Part shown: positions 36,053 through 41,089 of the stretch, piece after piece
How the letters are laid out: each line of letters starts with the position of its first letter
How positions within the stretch are numbered: the first letter of the stretch is position 1
NCBI GenBank assembly: GCA_017403155.1
Contig: JAFQOP010000020.1
Span: 45,349 to 109,348 of the forward strand
Origin: Clostridia bacterium
Lineage (GTDB): Bacteria > Bacillota > Clostridia > Oscillospirales > CAG-272
Direction: 5' to 3'
Length of the DNA stretch: 64,000 bases
Position numbers and translations under genes: made by a program
Notes under the pieces: model-generated
What the model was told of the DNA's origin: nothing
Database searches by the model: none
Seen by the model: the letters and a program-made list of their open reading frames with translations, nothing else

Positions 36053-36898
36053 ATGGCAACCTTCTACAACCAGGCGACACTGTCCTACAACGGCATTGTC
36101 ACCGATTCTAACGTTACCGAGGGGGAAATAGTCGGCGCGCTTGAGGTGGCGAAGACGGCAATCTCCACCTCCTATCGCCAAGGCGACACTATCGCATATG
36201 CTGTCAGCATACTCAACTCCTCGGAGAGCACGACGGGCGGCGTAACACTGGCTGACAGCCTCGGCAGCTACGAGGTCGGCGGCGTGACCTACCGTCCGCT
36301 CGACTACCTTGACGGGTCGGTGAGGCTCTTTATCGGTGGAACACTTGTTGCTCCACCCACCGTAAGCACGGAGGGGGTGCTGACCTTCAGCGGTATTTCC
36401 ATTCCCGCGAATACCTCGGCAATCCTTATCTACCAGGCAACGGTAAACGACACAGCCCCACTTGCGGTCGGCTCACAGATAACCAACACCGTTACAGTGA
36501 GCGGCAGCTGCGAGGACGTCATTGCAAGCGCGACAGTACCCGTGCGCGAGGAGACCTCGCTCACAATAGCGAAGGCAATCTCCCCCGAGGCAGTTTCCTG
36601 CGGCGAGGAGATAAGCTACACCTTCATAATCCAGAACACAGGCAACACTGCCGCAGATGAGACGGCAGGTGTGAGTGTACGCGACGTCTTCACACCTATA
36701 CTCAACGGAATTTCTGTAAGACTTAACGGGCAGCCCTTCCCTGCCACGTCCTACACCTATGACACCGCGACGGGTGCTTTTGTCACTACTGCGGGAGAGA
36801 TCACCGTGCCTGCGGCGACCTACACGCAGGACCCTCTGTCGGGAGCTGTGACTCTCACCCCCGGTGTTGCCGTGCTTACGGTAACGGGAACCGTCTGA
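36053..36898 (+). CDS. DUF11-type repeat protein, no signal peptide
   Basis: 281 residues. Starts MATFYNQATLSYNGIVTDSN, which resembles a family of clostridial proteins of unknown role. Two beta-sandwich-like repeats can be traced: about 30-150 (ISTSYRQGDTIAYAVSILNS) and about 160-275 (LTIAKAISPEAVSCGEEISY). Each carries the K...GD.ISYTI/FIIQNTGN...VRD pattern of DUF11/TIGR01451 surface repeats. There is no signal peptide, transmembrane anchor or LPXTG, which is unusual for this class. AAAGGAG precedes the ATG. Terminator at 36905. Confidence 0.8.
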   Translation: MATFYNQATLSYNGIVTDSNVTEGEIVGALEVAKTAISTSYRQGDTIAYAVSILNSSESTTGGVTLADSLGSYEVGGVTYRPLDYLDGSVRLFIGGTLVAPPTVSTEGVLTFSGISIPANTSAILIYQATVNDTAPLAVGSQITNTVTVSGSCEDVIASATVPVREETSLTIAKAISPEAVSCGEEISYTFIIQNTGNTAADETAGVSVRDVFTPILNGISVRLNGQPFPATSYTYDTATGAFVTTAGEITVPAATYTQDPLSGAVTLTPGVAVLTVTGTV

Positions 36899-36904
36899 AT
36901 ATAA

Positions 36905-36930
36905 GAAAAAGGCTCGTTCGAGCCTTTTTC
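36905..36930 (+). terminator. terminator after the DUF11-like gene
   Basis: AAAAAGGCTCG-TT-CGAGCCTTTTT hairpin. Confidence 0.9.
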
Positions 36931-36953
36931 TTTATTTATTAACAAAAAAACAG

Positions 36954-36982
36954 TTGCATTTGTACTTAAAGGGTGGTACAAT
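36954..36982 (+). promoter_or_regulatory. sigma-A promoter for the Cys-rich lipoprotein pair
   Basis: TTGCAT, 17-bp spacer, TACAAT, 25 bp before the ATG at 37008. Confidence 0.7.
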
Positions 36983-37007: not shown

Positions 37008-38024
37008 ATGAAAAAGATATTTAAAAGCTACCTCGTGCTGCTGCTTGCCGTTTCCATAGCTCTGCTGCTTGCAGGCTGCGGTGAGGTGTGCAAGGGGCAC
37101 CTGGACGAGAATAAAAACGGAAAATGCGATCTGTGCGGTGCGGAATTCATCGCTGAGTGCACGCTGCACACCGACGCTAACTCAAACTATCTGTGCGATA
37201 TATGCGGATCGTGCTTCCACAATGACCCCGACAAGGACAACGAATGTAACGTTTGCCACGCGTGTCTCGACCACAGAGACGGAGATGACGACGAGCTTTG
37301 CGACCTATGCGGCGAGACATACGATTTTGTATGTGCGGAGGGGGACCACGCGGATACCGACAGCTCTCACAGATGCGACGAGTGCGGCAGGTGCCTCGAC
37401 CACGATGACGAGAACGGAGACGGCAAATGCGATATCTGCGCAGCAGATTACTCCTTTGAGTGCGGAGACAATCACCTCGACCCGGATATGAACAATCTGT
37501 GCAACGAGTGCGGTACGGAGGTTGTGCATGAGGATGCAGACGGAGACTGTGTGTGCGACCTGTGCAGGCTTACGATGCCGCACGTCGATGAAGTGGCAGA
37601 CTGTCTGTGCGACAAGTGCGGAACAGAGCTGCCTCACAAGGACGAAAACAAGAACTGCATATGCGACGTGTGCAACGGATTCCTTGACCACATAGATACG
37701 GAGACACCCGACTGTAGGTGCGACAATTGCGGAGCCACACTTCCCCACACGCGTGCTTACTACGGCTGTGTGTGCGAGGTTTGCGGCACCGAGATGCACT
37801 CCTATGAGCATCACCCCTGCGAATGCGACTTTTGCGACCACGAAAGACACGAGGACGTTGACTGGGACGGCGCAGGAAAGTGTGACGGCTGCGGGCTTCA
37901 CGTCCGACACGTTGATATAGACGCCCCCGGCGGAAATATGATATGCGACGTGTGCGGTGAAACGATTACGTTTGACGAGGACGATTTCATTCGCCCTGGT
38001 CAGGGAAAGGATAACAAGGAATGA
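37008..38024 (+). CDS. Cys-rich repeat lipoprotein A
   Basis: 338 residues, ATG at 37008 (GGAGGG 6 nt upstream). Signal peptide with lipobox LLAGC, then about 15 tandem repeats of 15-25 residues of the form H-x-D-x-[ND]-x-[ND]-x-x-C-[DN]-x-C-[G/x], for example GHLDENKNGKCDLCG, DHDDENGDGKCDICA and PHKDENKNCICDVCN. Each pairs a DxNxDG-like calcium-loop pattern with a CxxC and a preceding His, so a chain of metal sites (Zn or Ca, inference) is likely. No catalytic domain is seen and the protein ends in an acidic segment. The 3' end overlaps its paralogue by 4 nt. Confidence 0.85.
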   Translation: MKKIFKSYLVLLLAVSIALLLAGCGEVCKGHLDENKNGKCDLCGAEFIAECTLHTDANSNYLCDICGSCFHNDPDKDNECNVCHACLDHRDGDDDELCDLCGETYDFVCAEGDHADTDSSHRCDECGRCLDHDDENGDGKCDICAADYSFECGDNHLDPDMNNLCNECGTEVVHEDADGDCVCDLCRLTMPHVDEVADCLCDKCGTELPHKDENKNCICDVCNGFLDHIDTETPDCRCDNCGATLPHTRAYYGCVCEVCGTEMHSYEHHPCECDFCDHERHEDVDWDGAGKCDGCGLHVRHVDIDAPGGNMICDVCGETITFDEDDFIRPGQGKDNKE

Positions 38025-39130
38025 GAAAGGCTTTACTCTTAACGCTTACCTTAACTCTTGCACTTCTCCTCCTTCTCACCTCCTGCTCCGAGAGCTGTGA
38101 CGGACATAAGGACGAGAACGGCAACGGACTGTGCGACGTGTGCGGAGAGTCATTCGAGCCCGAATGCAGCAAGCACACTGACGCAAATAAGAATTATCTG
38201 TGCGACGTATGCGGAGAGTGTCTACATAATGACGAAAAGGGCGACCTTATATGCGACGTATGCAAAATCTGCCTCGATCACGATGACGGAGACGGAGACG
38301 ACAGGTGCGACAGATGCGGTGCCGATTACGACCTTGTATGTGATGGCGAGCACAGGGACGAGGACGGAAGCCTCCGCTGTGACGAGTGCGGCAGCTGTCT
38401 TGACCACGACGATGAGAACGGAGACGACAAGTGCGACAGATGCGGTGCCGACTATGCCTATGACTGCGGTGACAGCCACAGTGACCACGATGCAAACAAT
38501 CTGTGCAACGAGTGCGGCGCACCCGTAGAGCATATCGACGAAAACGGCGACTGCATATGTGATATATGCACCGTTGCACTTCCCCACACCGACACCGATA
38601 ACAACTGTGTATGCGACGTGTGCGCTTACGAATATGCTCACAAGGACCTCGTCAGAGACTGTGTGTGCGACGTATGCAAGGTACCGCTCGAGCACACCGA
38701 CAACAGCAATGACTGCATATGTGACAGATGCAACGCAGCAATGGAGCATAAGCGCGTAGCCGAGCTATGCAAATGCTCAAGATGTAACGCAACTGTGCAC
38801 CTCGATGAAAACGGGGACGGAAAATGCGATACACCGAAATGCAACGCAATGTGCTTCAACGGTCATAGAGACGAGAACGGGGACCGCAAATGCGACGTAT
38901 GCGAGAGCTGCCTGACAGATCACGGGGACGACTCCGACCTTGACGAGGATGGCAAGTGTGACGTTTGTGACGCCTGCATAACTCACAAGGATGAAAACAA
39001 CGACAAGATATGCGACAACTGCACTATATGCATAGAGCACGCAGACAAAAACGGCGACAGAAGCTGTGACAACTGCGGTGCGAACGTTGACTCAGGCACC
39101 GTTGTGCTGCCGCCCCACGAGTTCAACTGA
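38021..39130 (+). CDS. Cys-rich repeat lipoprotein B (paralogue)
   Basis: 369 residues, starting ATGA over the stop of lipoprotein A. Signal peptide with lipobox LLTSC, then about 17 repeats of the same H-x-D-x-[ND]-x-[ND]-x-x-C-D-x-C type (GHKDENGNGLCDVCG, KHTDANKNYLCDVCG, DHDDENGDDKCDRCG). The first twelve repeats align in order with those of lipoprotein A, so the genes arose by duplication of a whole gene, not by independent repeat growth. Ends GTVVLPPHEFN. Function unknown; a metal-binding surface protein is the plausible reading. Confidence 0.85.
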   Translation: MRKALLLTLTLTLALLLLLTSCSESCDGHKDENGNGLCDVCGESFEPECSKHTDANKNYLCDVCGECLHNDEKGDLICDVCKICLDHDDGDGDDRCDRCGADYDLVCDGEHRDEDGSLRCDECGSCLDHDDENGDDKCDRCGADYAYDCGDSHSDHDANNLCNECGAPVEHIDENGDCICDICTVALPHTDTDNNCVCDVCAYEYAHKDLVRDCVCDVCKVPLEHTDNSNDCICDRCNAAMEHKRVAELCKCSRCNATVHLDENGDGKCDTPKCNAMCFNGHRDENGDRKCDVCESCLTDHGDDSDLDEDGKCDVCDACITHKDENNDKICDNCTICIEHADKNGDRSCDNCGANVDSGTVVLPPHEFN

Positions 39131-39132
39131 CA

Positions 39133-39170
39133 AAAAGAAGGATAAGCCTCGCGGCTTATCCTTCTTTTTT
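39133..39170. terminator. terminator between convergent lipoprotein B and dehydratase genes
   Basis: 15-bp stem AAAGAAGGATAAGCC with its complement around a TCGC loop, followed by T7 on the plus strand. Confidence 0.92.
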
Positions 39171-41089
39171 TATGTATTCACAAGCTTCATTTCATCGCTT
39201 GACGATGCTCGCTCATTTACCTCCTCAGGGGAACGGAAGGTAGGCACAGCCTGCCTCATTGCCTCGGTGATAGCAGGGTCGGCAACCATACCCTCTCCGT
39301 CGGCAACCGCGCGGCGAAGAGCCTCCAGCTTTTCCTCTACCTCCGCACGGGTGAGGGGTGTGTCGCGTTCGATAAAGATAAGATTGTTGTCTGTCTTATC
39401 AAGATTTTCGGTTTTGATAAGAAGCTCCTCATAGAGCTTCTCACCCGGACGCAGACCCGTCTCTATAATATCGATATCTATATAGGGATTAAAGCCCGAG
39501 AGCTTTATCATATTTGTAGCGAGATCTATGATTTTTACGGGCTTGCCCATATCGAGAACAAAGAGCTCACCGCACTTTGCCATAGCTCCCGCCTGCATCA
39601 CAAGTCCCGATGCCTCGGGAATTGTCATGAAATATCGGATGATGCGCTTGTCGGTTACGGTTACGGGGCCGCCAGCCTCAATCTGACGCTTGAAGAGGGG
39701 GATAACCGAGCCGTTGGAGCCGAGGACGTTGCCAAAGCGGACTGCCGCAAAGACGGTCTTGCTGTCCTGACGGCACTGCACAACCATCTCGCACATGCGC
39801 TTGGAGGCGCCCATAACGTTGGTGGGATTTACCGCCTTGTCGGTGGAGATGAGGATAAACCTGGAGACTCCGTGCTTTTCTGCCATATCGGCGGTGTTAT
39901 AGGTTCCGAGGACGTTGTTCTTGATTGCCTCGCAGTTTGAATGCTCCATCAGAGGAACGTGCTTATGTGCTGCGGCATGGAAAACAACGTCGGGATGATA
40001 GTGTGCGAATATCGCGTCCAGACGCACTCTGTCACGGACGGAGGCTATCTCGACCGCAAGGTCAAGCTCTTCACCGTATTTGCGCTTCAGCTCCTGCTGA
40101 ATATCGTATGCGTTGTTCTCGTATATATCAAGTATTATGAGCTTTTTAGGACGGCACTTGGCAATAAGGCGGGATATCTCACTGCCTATCGAGCCTCCTC
40201 CGCCCGTTACAAGGACCGTCTTGCCCCGATAGAATTCCACGGTCTTATCATTGATGACCGAGAGGGTGTCGCGGAAGAGCAGATCCTCTATTCTCACGTC
40301 TCTGACTACTCGCTTGGAGGAGATATCGTCGGAGCCGTCTGCCTTTATCGGGAAGTCATAAACCTTTACCTTACAGCCGCTCTTTGAATAGAATTCGTAG
40401 AAATGCTTGATCTGGTCCTCTCCGAGGTCGCTTATCGCTATAAGAACCTCATCGACCGAAAGCTCCTTAAGGGTTTCGATAACAGCCTCCTCACCTGCGT
40501 AGACCTTGAGTCCGAGGAGGGTGGTGCCAACCTTGTTGCGGTTTTTGTCAATGAAGCAGACGGGGGTATATTTTGAGGACTTATCGAATATAAGCTCCTC
40601 TGCGAGAAGTGTACCTATCTGTCCTGCACCGACTATGGCAACGCGGCGCTCGGTGCTGCCGTCCTTTGCCTGGGTTGCATTGCTGGAGCGGTGCATGTGC
40701 TGATATATAAACCTCGAAACGAGGGTAACGACGTTTGTCATGCTTACAAACGCGCAGCTGCGCCACACGGAAATGAATGCCCAGGAGATGAAATGCGTTA
40801 TAAGCACTGCAACAACTCCTGCCACGGCATCCGCAACAACCAAGCCGACAAAGGACTTGGAGTTGGCATAGCGCCACATATTTTTGTAGGTGCCTATCAT
40901 AACACGTGCCGTCATTATAAGCACGTAAAATATTGCCGCGTTAAGAAGATATCCGTAGGGCGGCTTTGAGTTGTATTCTGCGTAATCCTCAACGAAGGTT
41001 ACAAACACTGTGAGAAGATAGACAGCAACGAATATAAGAGTATCAATTCCTATAAGGGCGAGCCTACGTCTGTTTTTAAATATAGACAT
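39170..41089 (-). CDS. membrane-bound nucleotide-sugar 4,6-dehydratase/epimerase (CapD/WbpM type)
   Basis: 639 residues. N-terminal four hydrophobic helices (about 10-115); CoA-binding-like Rossmann module (VAIVGAGQIGTLLAEELI); SDR catalytic domain from about 275 (TVLVTGGGGSIGSEISRLIA), with DKAVNPTNVMGASKR at the active site (Met replaces the usual Tyr, as known for long-type WbpM-like dehydratases) and LRPGEKLYEELL near the C-terminus. Makes UDP-4-keto-6-deoxy sugars for surface polysaccharides. Stands alone here; its promoter (41133-41161) faces that of the methyltransferase. Confidence 0.93.
   Translation of the reverse strand: MSIFKNRRRLALIGIDTLIFVAVYLLTVFVTFVEDYAEYNSKPPYGYLLNAAIFYVLIMTARVMIGTYKNMWRYANSKSFVGLVVADAVAGVVAVLITHFISWAFISVWRSCAFVSMTNVVTLVSRFIYQHMHRSSNATQAKDGSTERRVAIVGAGQIGTLLAEELIFDKSSKYTPVCFIDKNRNKVGTTLLGLKVYAGEEAVIETLKELSVDEVLIAISDLGEDQIKHFYEFYSKSGCKVKVYDFPIKADGSDDISSKRVVRDVRIEDLLFRDTLSVINDKTVEFYRGKTVLVTGGGGSIGSEISRLIAKCRPKKLIILDIYENNAYDIQQELKRKYGEELDLAVEIASVRDRVRLDAIFAHYHPDVVFHAAAHKHVPLMEHSNCEAIKNNVLGTYNTADMAEKHGVSRFILISTDKAVNPTNVMGASKRMCEMVVQCRQDSKTVFAAVRFGNVLGSNGSVIPLFKRQIEAGGPVTVTDKRIIRYFMTIPEASGLVMQAGAMAKCGELFVLDMGKPVKIIDLATNMIKLSGFNPYIDIDIIETGLRPGEKLYEELLIKTENLDKTDNNLIFIERDTPLTRAEVEEKLEALRRAVADGEGMVADPAITEAMRQAVPTFRSPEEVNERASSSDEMKLVNT

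Follow-up and report, generated by a model that had tools for sequence, protein, structure and literature searches.

Tandem Cys/His repeat units in two overlapping lipoprotein genes of a Clostridia bacterium: candidate zinc-binding surface arrays

Several described metal-binding systems resemble the repeats considered here. Zinc ribbons and zinc knuckles (Pfam DZR, Zn_Ribbon_1, LysW and the LapB rubredoxin type) hold a single ion between two ligand pairs, and the retroviral CCHC knuckle is a well-known case for comparison. Sites composed of three Cys and one His are generally occupied by zinc in preference to iron. The calcium loops of dockerins, EF-hands and thrombospondin type 3 repeats carry Asp or Asn at positions 1, 3, 5 and 9, with an acidic residue at position 12. 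Bacterial metallothioneins, such as SmtA and BmtA, are small, Cys-rich proteins with some His which bind many metal ions per chain. Proteins rich in Cys that hold metal are generally uncommon on the outer side of the membrane.

The gene pair and its locus

The window analysed is a stretch of 64,000 nucleotides from a Clostridia bacterium related to the Oscillospiraceae. Two overlapping genes on its forward strand, ORF1 (37008-38024) and ORF2 (38021-39130), share four bases in an ATGA sequence. ORF1 begins with an ATG after GGAGG and encodes a lipoprotein of 338 aa, with the lipobox LLAGC and its lipid Cys at residue 24. The 369-aa product of ORF2 has the lipobox LLTSC, a lipid Cys at residue 22 and the tail VVLPPHEFN. 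The features of a type II signal peptide (n-region, hydrophobic stretch and lipobox ending in Cys) are present in both, the lipoprotein call being made by sequence inspection and a lipobox pattern. Beyond the lipid Cys the two proteins are almost purely repeat units, 15 in ORF1 and 17 in ORF2. With the lipid Cys left out, mature ORF1 contains 43 Cys and 21 His in 315 aa (net charge -60) and mature ORF2 contains 50 Cys and 19 His in 348 aa (net charge -61). The lipoboxes, unit counts and overlap bear out the description in an earlier note of two overlapping lipoproteins made almost wholly of repeats.

A terminator-like hairpin of 13 pairs (36903-36932, forward strand) lies 3′ of a DUF11-type gene and 5′ of the pair. 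A second hairpin, of 17 pairs followed by a T-run, lies 3′ of the pair (39132-39169, same strand). Both come from a hairpin scan in which two terminator-like sites were observed against 2.2 expected (mean of shuffles), which is no excess. As the pair is flanked by these hairpins, it is probably transcribed as a single two-gene unit. The promoter scan found no promoter-like site; a possible promoter with a weak -35, TTGCAT-17-TACAAT, was read by eye at 36954-36982 on the forward strand. Upstream of the pair, the DUF11/B_ant_repeat protein (36053-36898, forward strand; Pfam/NCBIfam and synteny) is a syntenic marker and is not known to belong to the system. It begins MATFYNQATLSYNG, is without an evident signal peptide and is syntenic in the genomes labelled G835 and G837. 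Convergent with the pair is a capD-like polysaccharide epimerase/dehydratase gene (39170-41089, reverse strand), named by resemblance and used as a syntenic marker only.

Array-only lipoproteins are found in the same place, flanked by genes that resemble sbcC and capD, in the congeners G835, G016, G839 and G011, and thus at a common locus in five species with the source species included. G835 has one array gene, L249, with the same DUF11 neighbour upstream. The positional orthologues in G016, G839 and G011 are L130, L251 and L135, the last with 8 units. L130 and L135 were considered as unrelated analogues of the window pair, and this was rejected as they share its locus.

A capD match at E≤1e-100 is present in 39 of the 60 genus genomes searched, own genome included. 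Among 22 congener stretches beside capD, four carry arrays, two (L252 and L256) are too short to tell and 16 are without arrays by a Cys filter; some of these 16 have only distant capD matches, and the other 16 matching genomes fall outside the count. In G837 the sbcD, sbcC, DUF11 and capD genes are kept, and an acyl-CoA-ligase-like gene (by resemblance) stands where the array would be.

ORF1 and ORF2 are about 50% identical, and either is 35-40% identical to L249. As the two are closer to each other than to L249, their duplication was probably later than the split from G835. The tails after the last unit also recur, LPPHxF being common to ORF2 and L249, and TLPxVPL to L130 and L251.

The repeat unit and its four Cys/His residues

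A typical unit contains exactly four Cys/His residues, namely a CxxC, one His and one Cys of variable place. Window units were parsed from one CxxC to the next, with any extra Cys given to the unit after it (upstream assignment). On this CxxC-anchored parse, units 1-7 of ORF1 (37089-37511) are of layout A, C-x(1-4)-H-x8-CxxC, with the ligand string C..H........C..C. Units 8-13 (37527-37835) are of layout B, H-x6(7)-C-x-CxxC, without a Cys before the His (string H......C.C..C) and with two further His in unit 13. Units 14-15 (37836-37955) are of layout F, H-x2-H ... CxxC, in which a His replaces the extra Cys. ORF2 follows a similar course on the same strand, with layout A in units 1-7 (38096-38515), layout B in units 8-12 (38531-38785) and layout A again in units 13-17 (38786-39076), including one odd unit, CDTPKC..NAMC. 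In window units without a Cys before the His, the other Cys sits two residues before the CxxC. The unit is better described by four Cys/His than by the repeat formula given in the earlier note, which missed the moving fourth ligand and whose Asp/Asn positions are mostly less strict than its Cys and His, the Asp two residues after the His excepted.

Exactly four ligands are present in 12/15 units of ORF1 (shuffled mean 5.7, with 14 of 20,000 shuffles as high) and in 15/17 units of ORF2 (shuffled mean 7.8, with 2 of 20,000 as high), the slots being permuted inside each protein. The upstream ligand and the loop ligand are mutually exclusive in the window pair (Fisher 0.01 and 0.035). In the 32 units of L130 the fourth ligand is a loop Cys, mostly four residues before the CxxC, or a Cys just after the CxxC: the loop Cys alone occurs in 19 units, the downstream Cys alone in 11, neither in 2 and both in 0 (Fisher 6e-7). 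Under a downstream assignment, a parse chosen post hoc after seeing the data, four ligands are found in 31/32 units of L130 (shuffled mean 17.2, 0 of 20,000 shuffles as high); the upstream parse used for the window gives only 9/32, below the shuffles. Its orthologue L251 has the loop Cys only in 18 of 31 parsed units, the downstream Cys only in 11, neither in 2 and both in 0 (Fisher 9e-7). Two units of L251 are merged with neighbours (CDID without a second Cys, and CTKC), and the 31 parsed correspond to about 33 real ones. In L009 and L137 there is mostly a Cys in the place of the His, and a His two residues before the CxxC; exactly four ligands occur in 20 units of L009 (27 anchors), no excess over shuffles, and in 7/8 units of L137.

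A single lenient parse rule was applied to all 13 proteins tested. It gives 12 units with four ligands in ORF1 against 8.1 in shuffles (77/5000 as high), 15 in ORF2 against 10.5 (43/5000) and 29/32 in L130 against 22.1 (5/5000). Five proteins (L137, L013, L138, L133 and L132) lie above their own means and do not reach the 5% level, and no excess is seen in L009, L131, L139, L014 and L011b. Arrays of uniform layout are hardly testable by slot shuffling, and the units of an array are duplicates of each other, so that unit counts are not independent.

Across 25 array rows there are exactly 3.00 Cys per unit in 15, of which 12 also have exactly 1.00 His. The 201 anchor-to-anchor segments of these rows comprise 136 with four ligands, 39 with five, 18 with three and 8 with more. 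When 305 units were sorted, 220 fell into six four-ligand layouts, 30 were without a fourth ligand and 55 fitted none. Both sets of counts include L123, a protein with another Cys-rich repeat, which is outside the count used for the acidic-loop control. In that control, drawn from a query composed by the analyst and with periods counted per loop, acidic-loop repeats without the C-x-H unit have four Cys/His in 15/141 periods (mean 2.38, sd 1.21; 48 proteins from the best 80 of 84 loci). The C-x-H unit family, counted without L123, has four in 102/132 periods from 20 proteins (mean 3.95, sd 0.65). At least eight ORFs carry the C-x-H unit by pattern among the best 80 of 84 control-search loci, and three unit-bearing proteins among the matches listed have four ligands in 13/16 periods. 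As acidic-loop repeats without the unit lack the four-ligand rule, it is not general to such repeats.

Most units have an odd number of Cys, the ligands hold steady at four, and Cys and His are interchangeable, all of which points to a single tetrahedral ion in each bead. Zinc would be expected rather than iron, as one ligand is nearly always His. The pattern favours one putative Zn(Cys3His) site per bead of about 18 residues over disulphides or a redox scaffold, in which surface CxxC pairs would be stapled or would cycle between dithiol and disulphide. A CxxC is found in nearly every unit, and two unit lipoproteins of G000 (L099 and L100) also carry AhpC/TSA-type redoxin domains, as a redox role might predict. 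Such a role would leave one of the three Cys of most units unpaired; moreover, the His is conserved nearly as strictly as the Cys and can replace a Cys, the two compensating for one another. The redox scaffold mentioned in the earlier note thus becomes less likely, and it is here considered very unlikely. Binding of heme c was rejected, a His directly after the CxxC occurring in only 1/32 window units.

The window pair has no Pfam match at E≤1, and the EF-hand, dockerin and metallothionein models of Pfam leave it unmatched. No Pfam zinc-ribbon model scored above its cut-off in the proteins scanned; matches in relatives are weak and below cut-off (DZR, 25.3 bits against a cut-off of 27.3 in L136). 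Nothing significant was found in NCBIfam, where the sole match is a signal-peptide model below cut-off in ORF1. The best PDB match for the window proteins has E 0.18, and a single-unit profile matched nothing beyond short pieces of two PDB chains, both unrelated (E 0.075 and 7.3). With a full-length query, tblastn against named genomes recovered no relative. AlphaFold2 gave no confident fold for ORF2 aligned with ORF1 or for a three-unit segment aligned with eight others (mean pLDDT 38.7 and 44.6). Nothing on this repeat was found in literature titles and the beginnings of abstracts, and six sequence strings of the unit are absent from the text of 5.39 million papers, although sequences are seldom printed there as text. 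By Pfam, NCBIfam and the PDB the unit is a new repeat family, best filed provisionally as a variant of the zinc-knuckle kind.

Conservation and recurrence

The first 12 units of ORF1 and ORF2 align in order, as the earlier note had reported in proposing paralogy, and this relationship is confirmed. Across these units the identical columns are 36/36 for Cys, 12/15 for His, 50/93 for Asp/Asn/Glu, 12/20 for Gly and 23/69 for the rest, and codons differ, synonymously, at 57/133 identical residues. Beyond unit 12 the alignment breaks down, and over the full length 56/70 Cys/His columns are identical. Between species, L130 and L251 are identical at 92/94 Cys, 31/33 His, 108/238 Asp/Asn/Glu, 38/61 Gly and 94/199 other columns. 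Cys is thus well conserved in homologues, poor conservation being what the earlier note had named as evidence against metal binding. The less certain, gapped alignment of ORF2 with L249 has 39/52 Cys, 15/21 His, 56/141 Asp/Asn/Glu and 25/80 other columns identical.

Identity of Cys and His far above that of ordinary columns, together with the divergence of codons, excludes chance. It also bears on whether the arrays are low-complexity linkers under drift, with a composition upheld by repeat turnover only. The number of units is variable and the array is not seen beside capD in most of the congener stretches, as drift would allow. Yet all Cys of the aligned units stay while codons differ at many of the identical residues, and nearly all Cys are kept between species, so that a drifting linker is scarcely credible.

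The loop between the ligands is partly EF-hand-like, with the calcium-type positions 1, 3, 5 and 9 present and position 12 absent. The residue at H+2 (loop position 1), nearly always Asp, is identical in 25/25 and 27/28 pairs and is as fixed as the ligands. Position 3 (H+4) is Asp/Asn/Glu on both sides in 15/25 and 18/28 (60-64%), position 5 (H+6) is so in 22/25 and 23/27 pairs, and position 9, the residue after the first Cys (C1+1), is nearly fixed as Asp/Asn/Glu. Position 12 (H+13) is not acidic and is mostly Gly. The likeness to dockerins and EF-hands suggested in the earlier note therefore holds at positions 1, 5 and 9, less often at 3, and fails at 12.

These residues bear on a second reading, in which the acidic loop is the working part of a calcium-stiffened rod and the Cys pairs merely staple it. 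The Asp at H+2 counts in its favour and against a zinc-only reading, which does not need it. The Asp/Asn at H+6 and the acid at C1+1 agree with it, and the wider family, among the matches listed, retains a DxDGDGxCD loop without His or CxxC. Against it stand the missing acid at position 12 and the window loops HTRAYYGC and HKRVAELC, which retain all ligands with few acids. The acidic columns are also less conserved as a class than Cys/His, which are identical in 48/51 columns between ORF1 and ORF2. A rod of this kind is distinctly unlikely.

A profile search with the unit, recommended in the earlier note, recovered family members and domain partners; the unit is distributed genome-wide, while the locus is common to some congeners. 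Profile matches occur in 21/98 family genomes and in 9/291 sampled across the class; for the phylum, with a more stringent cut-off, they occur in 2/398 genomes, own genome counted in each. Of the genomes searched, the source genome has the most matches. Stretches taken from it contain 17 ORFs with the unit, the window pair among them, and in 13 of the 17, again including the pair, the units begin no more than 30 aa from the lipid Cys. The other domains of these proteins are unrelated to one another (BspA-type LRR, two AhpC/TSA-type redoxins and others without a clear Pfam name), and partners in relatives include pectinesterase, SH3 and CBM9. The unit is present in G070, which is Oscillospiraceae bacterium isolate SIG644 (133/133 60-mers of a stretch common to SVRN01000016.1), and, among the matches listed, in an uncultured Christensenellaceae bacterium (L139) and Candidatus Gallimonas gallistercoris (L182).

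Among 57 ORFs overall, the first unit is within 30 aa of the lipid Cys in 26 and the units stand close before a C-terminal membrane helix in 8 more; the remaining 23 fit neither test, several having a lipobox or C-terminal helix further off. As units recur near the lipid Cys, the unit looks like a membrane-proximal stalk module.

Other repeat proteins were seen in these searches. In L117:2775-5966 and L176, among the matches listed, HxFGxW..ATCTEAG..C.CG..ALGH repeats alternate with the unit. L123:4306-8649 encodes a 1447-aa protein whose 116 Cys belong to another type of CxxC-rich repeat and whose C-terminus is dockerin-like by eye. L132, L133 and L131 have C-terminal arrays on large lipoproteins ending in EDGWL, EQGWLGKE and NGWTKE. 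Among the matches listed, L140-L218 (for example L148:4845-5291) are small proteins that repeat [FY]VDADGDGVCDN(YGTG), and their records bear the titles Clostridia, Slackia/Adlercreutzia/Collinsella, Chloroflexi, Hydrogenedentes and ANME-type archaea; L148 is without a Pfam family and L151 has an EF-hand match below cut-off.

For the array-only proteins the main rival is storage or scavenging of metal at the surface: like a metallothionein, though anchored by a lipid, each would buffer or capture Zn2+ (or Cd/Cu) and would not act as a stalk. It would suit proteins without any other domain at a common locus in five species, unit numbers ranging from 8 to about 32 and mature chains of about 14% Cys, near that of bacterial metallothioneins. 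Storage is hardly plausible, however, where the unit stands in single or few copies before many unrelated domains, and the spacing is mononuclear, the thiolates not being clustered. Inspection by eye of the window ORFs next to the array genes showed no metal transporter. The source genome (87% complete) yielded no ZnuA, which is present in 11/14 control genomes, so that there is no tie to zinc uptake; this also counts against zinc-holding stalks. A metal store is thus considered unlikely, albeit less so than the calcium rod.

Proposed role and comparison with known systems

The most probable explanation is that the proteins are lipid-anchored, extracytoplasmic arrays of four-ligand metal beads, most likely with one Zn2+ each, which form a stalk. 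Each unit would be a self-contained site, usually Cys3His, with its ligands separated by an acidic loop, HxDx[ND]x[DN], which would turn tightly and may bind Ca2+ as well. That the arrays often lie close to the anchor and are joined to many kinds of domain suggests that they form an extended stalk, stabilised by metal without need of disulphides. This would suit an anaerobe, which the source bacterium, from its kin, presumably is. In many proteins another domain would be carried on the stalk. The window pair and its positional orthologues have no other domain, which suggests that here nothing but the array is made, as a stalk or coat on the surface that may bind about 15 and 17 metal ions. The metal, fold, shape and role proposed are all read from sequence.

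Multi-metal binding at the surface, as put forward in the earlier note, gains from the lipobox, the strict conservation of Cys/His and the approximately four candidate ligands per unit. Overall the interpretation in that note is partly supported, while what it observed is confirmed: metal binding has gained in likelihood, a redox role has lost, and the calcium loop is half borne out.

With rather less than even confidence, the arrays may be regarded as exported, tandem mononuclear Zn(Cys3His) repeats that form a class of their own, new to description. Its members would keep the ligand number at four and leave the fourth free to move (at least six layouts), zinc would take the part in surface stalks that disulphides or calcium have in other bacteria, and in one genus the metal array would have come to stand alone at the surface. 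If the arrays hold zinc, they would represent a disulphide-free way of building surface stalks. The moving fourth ligand would then amount to a natural mutagenesis of a zinc site, with many solutions of about 18 residues for the same ligand set.

Among known systems, the [FY]VDADGDGVCDN repeats share a tandem DxDxDGxCD loop in proteins that look exported; they differ in having Phe/Tyr for the His and in often losing the second Cys of the CxxC. SmtA and BmtA share the richness in Cys, the presence of some His and the expectation of many metal ions per chain, whereas the arrays are lipid-anchored, exported, much longer and composed of regular four-ligand beads. The loops of dockerins, EF-hands and thrombospondin type 3 repeats have in common with the unit the Asp/Asn at 1, 3, 5 and 9 and often a Gly at 6; the unit is without the acid at 12, adds a CxxC and a His, and has acids that vary more than its Cys/His. 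With zinc ribbons and knuckles the unit shares the CxxC(G) knuckle and an arrangement in which two pairs of ligands, separated by about 8-10 residues, surround a single ion (a putative one here), and the four Cys/His per site that define them are found in most, though not all, units. Unlike these domains, the arrays are extracytoplasmic, run in tandem up to about 32 units, have a mobile fourth ligand and contain an acidic loop.
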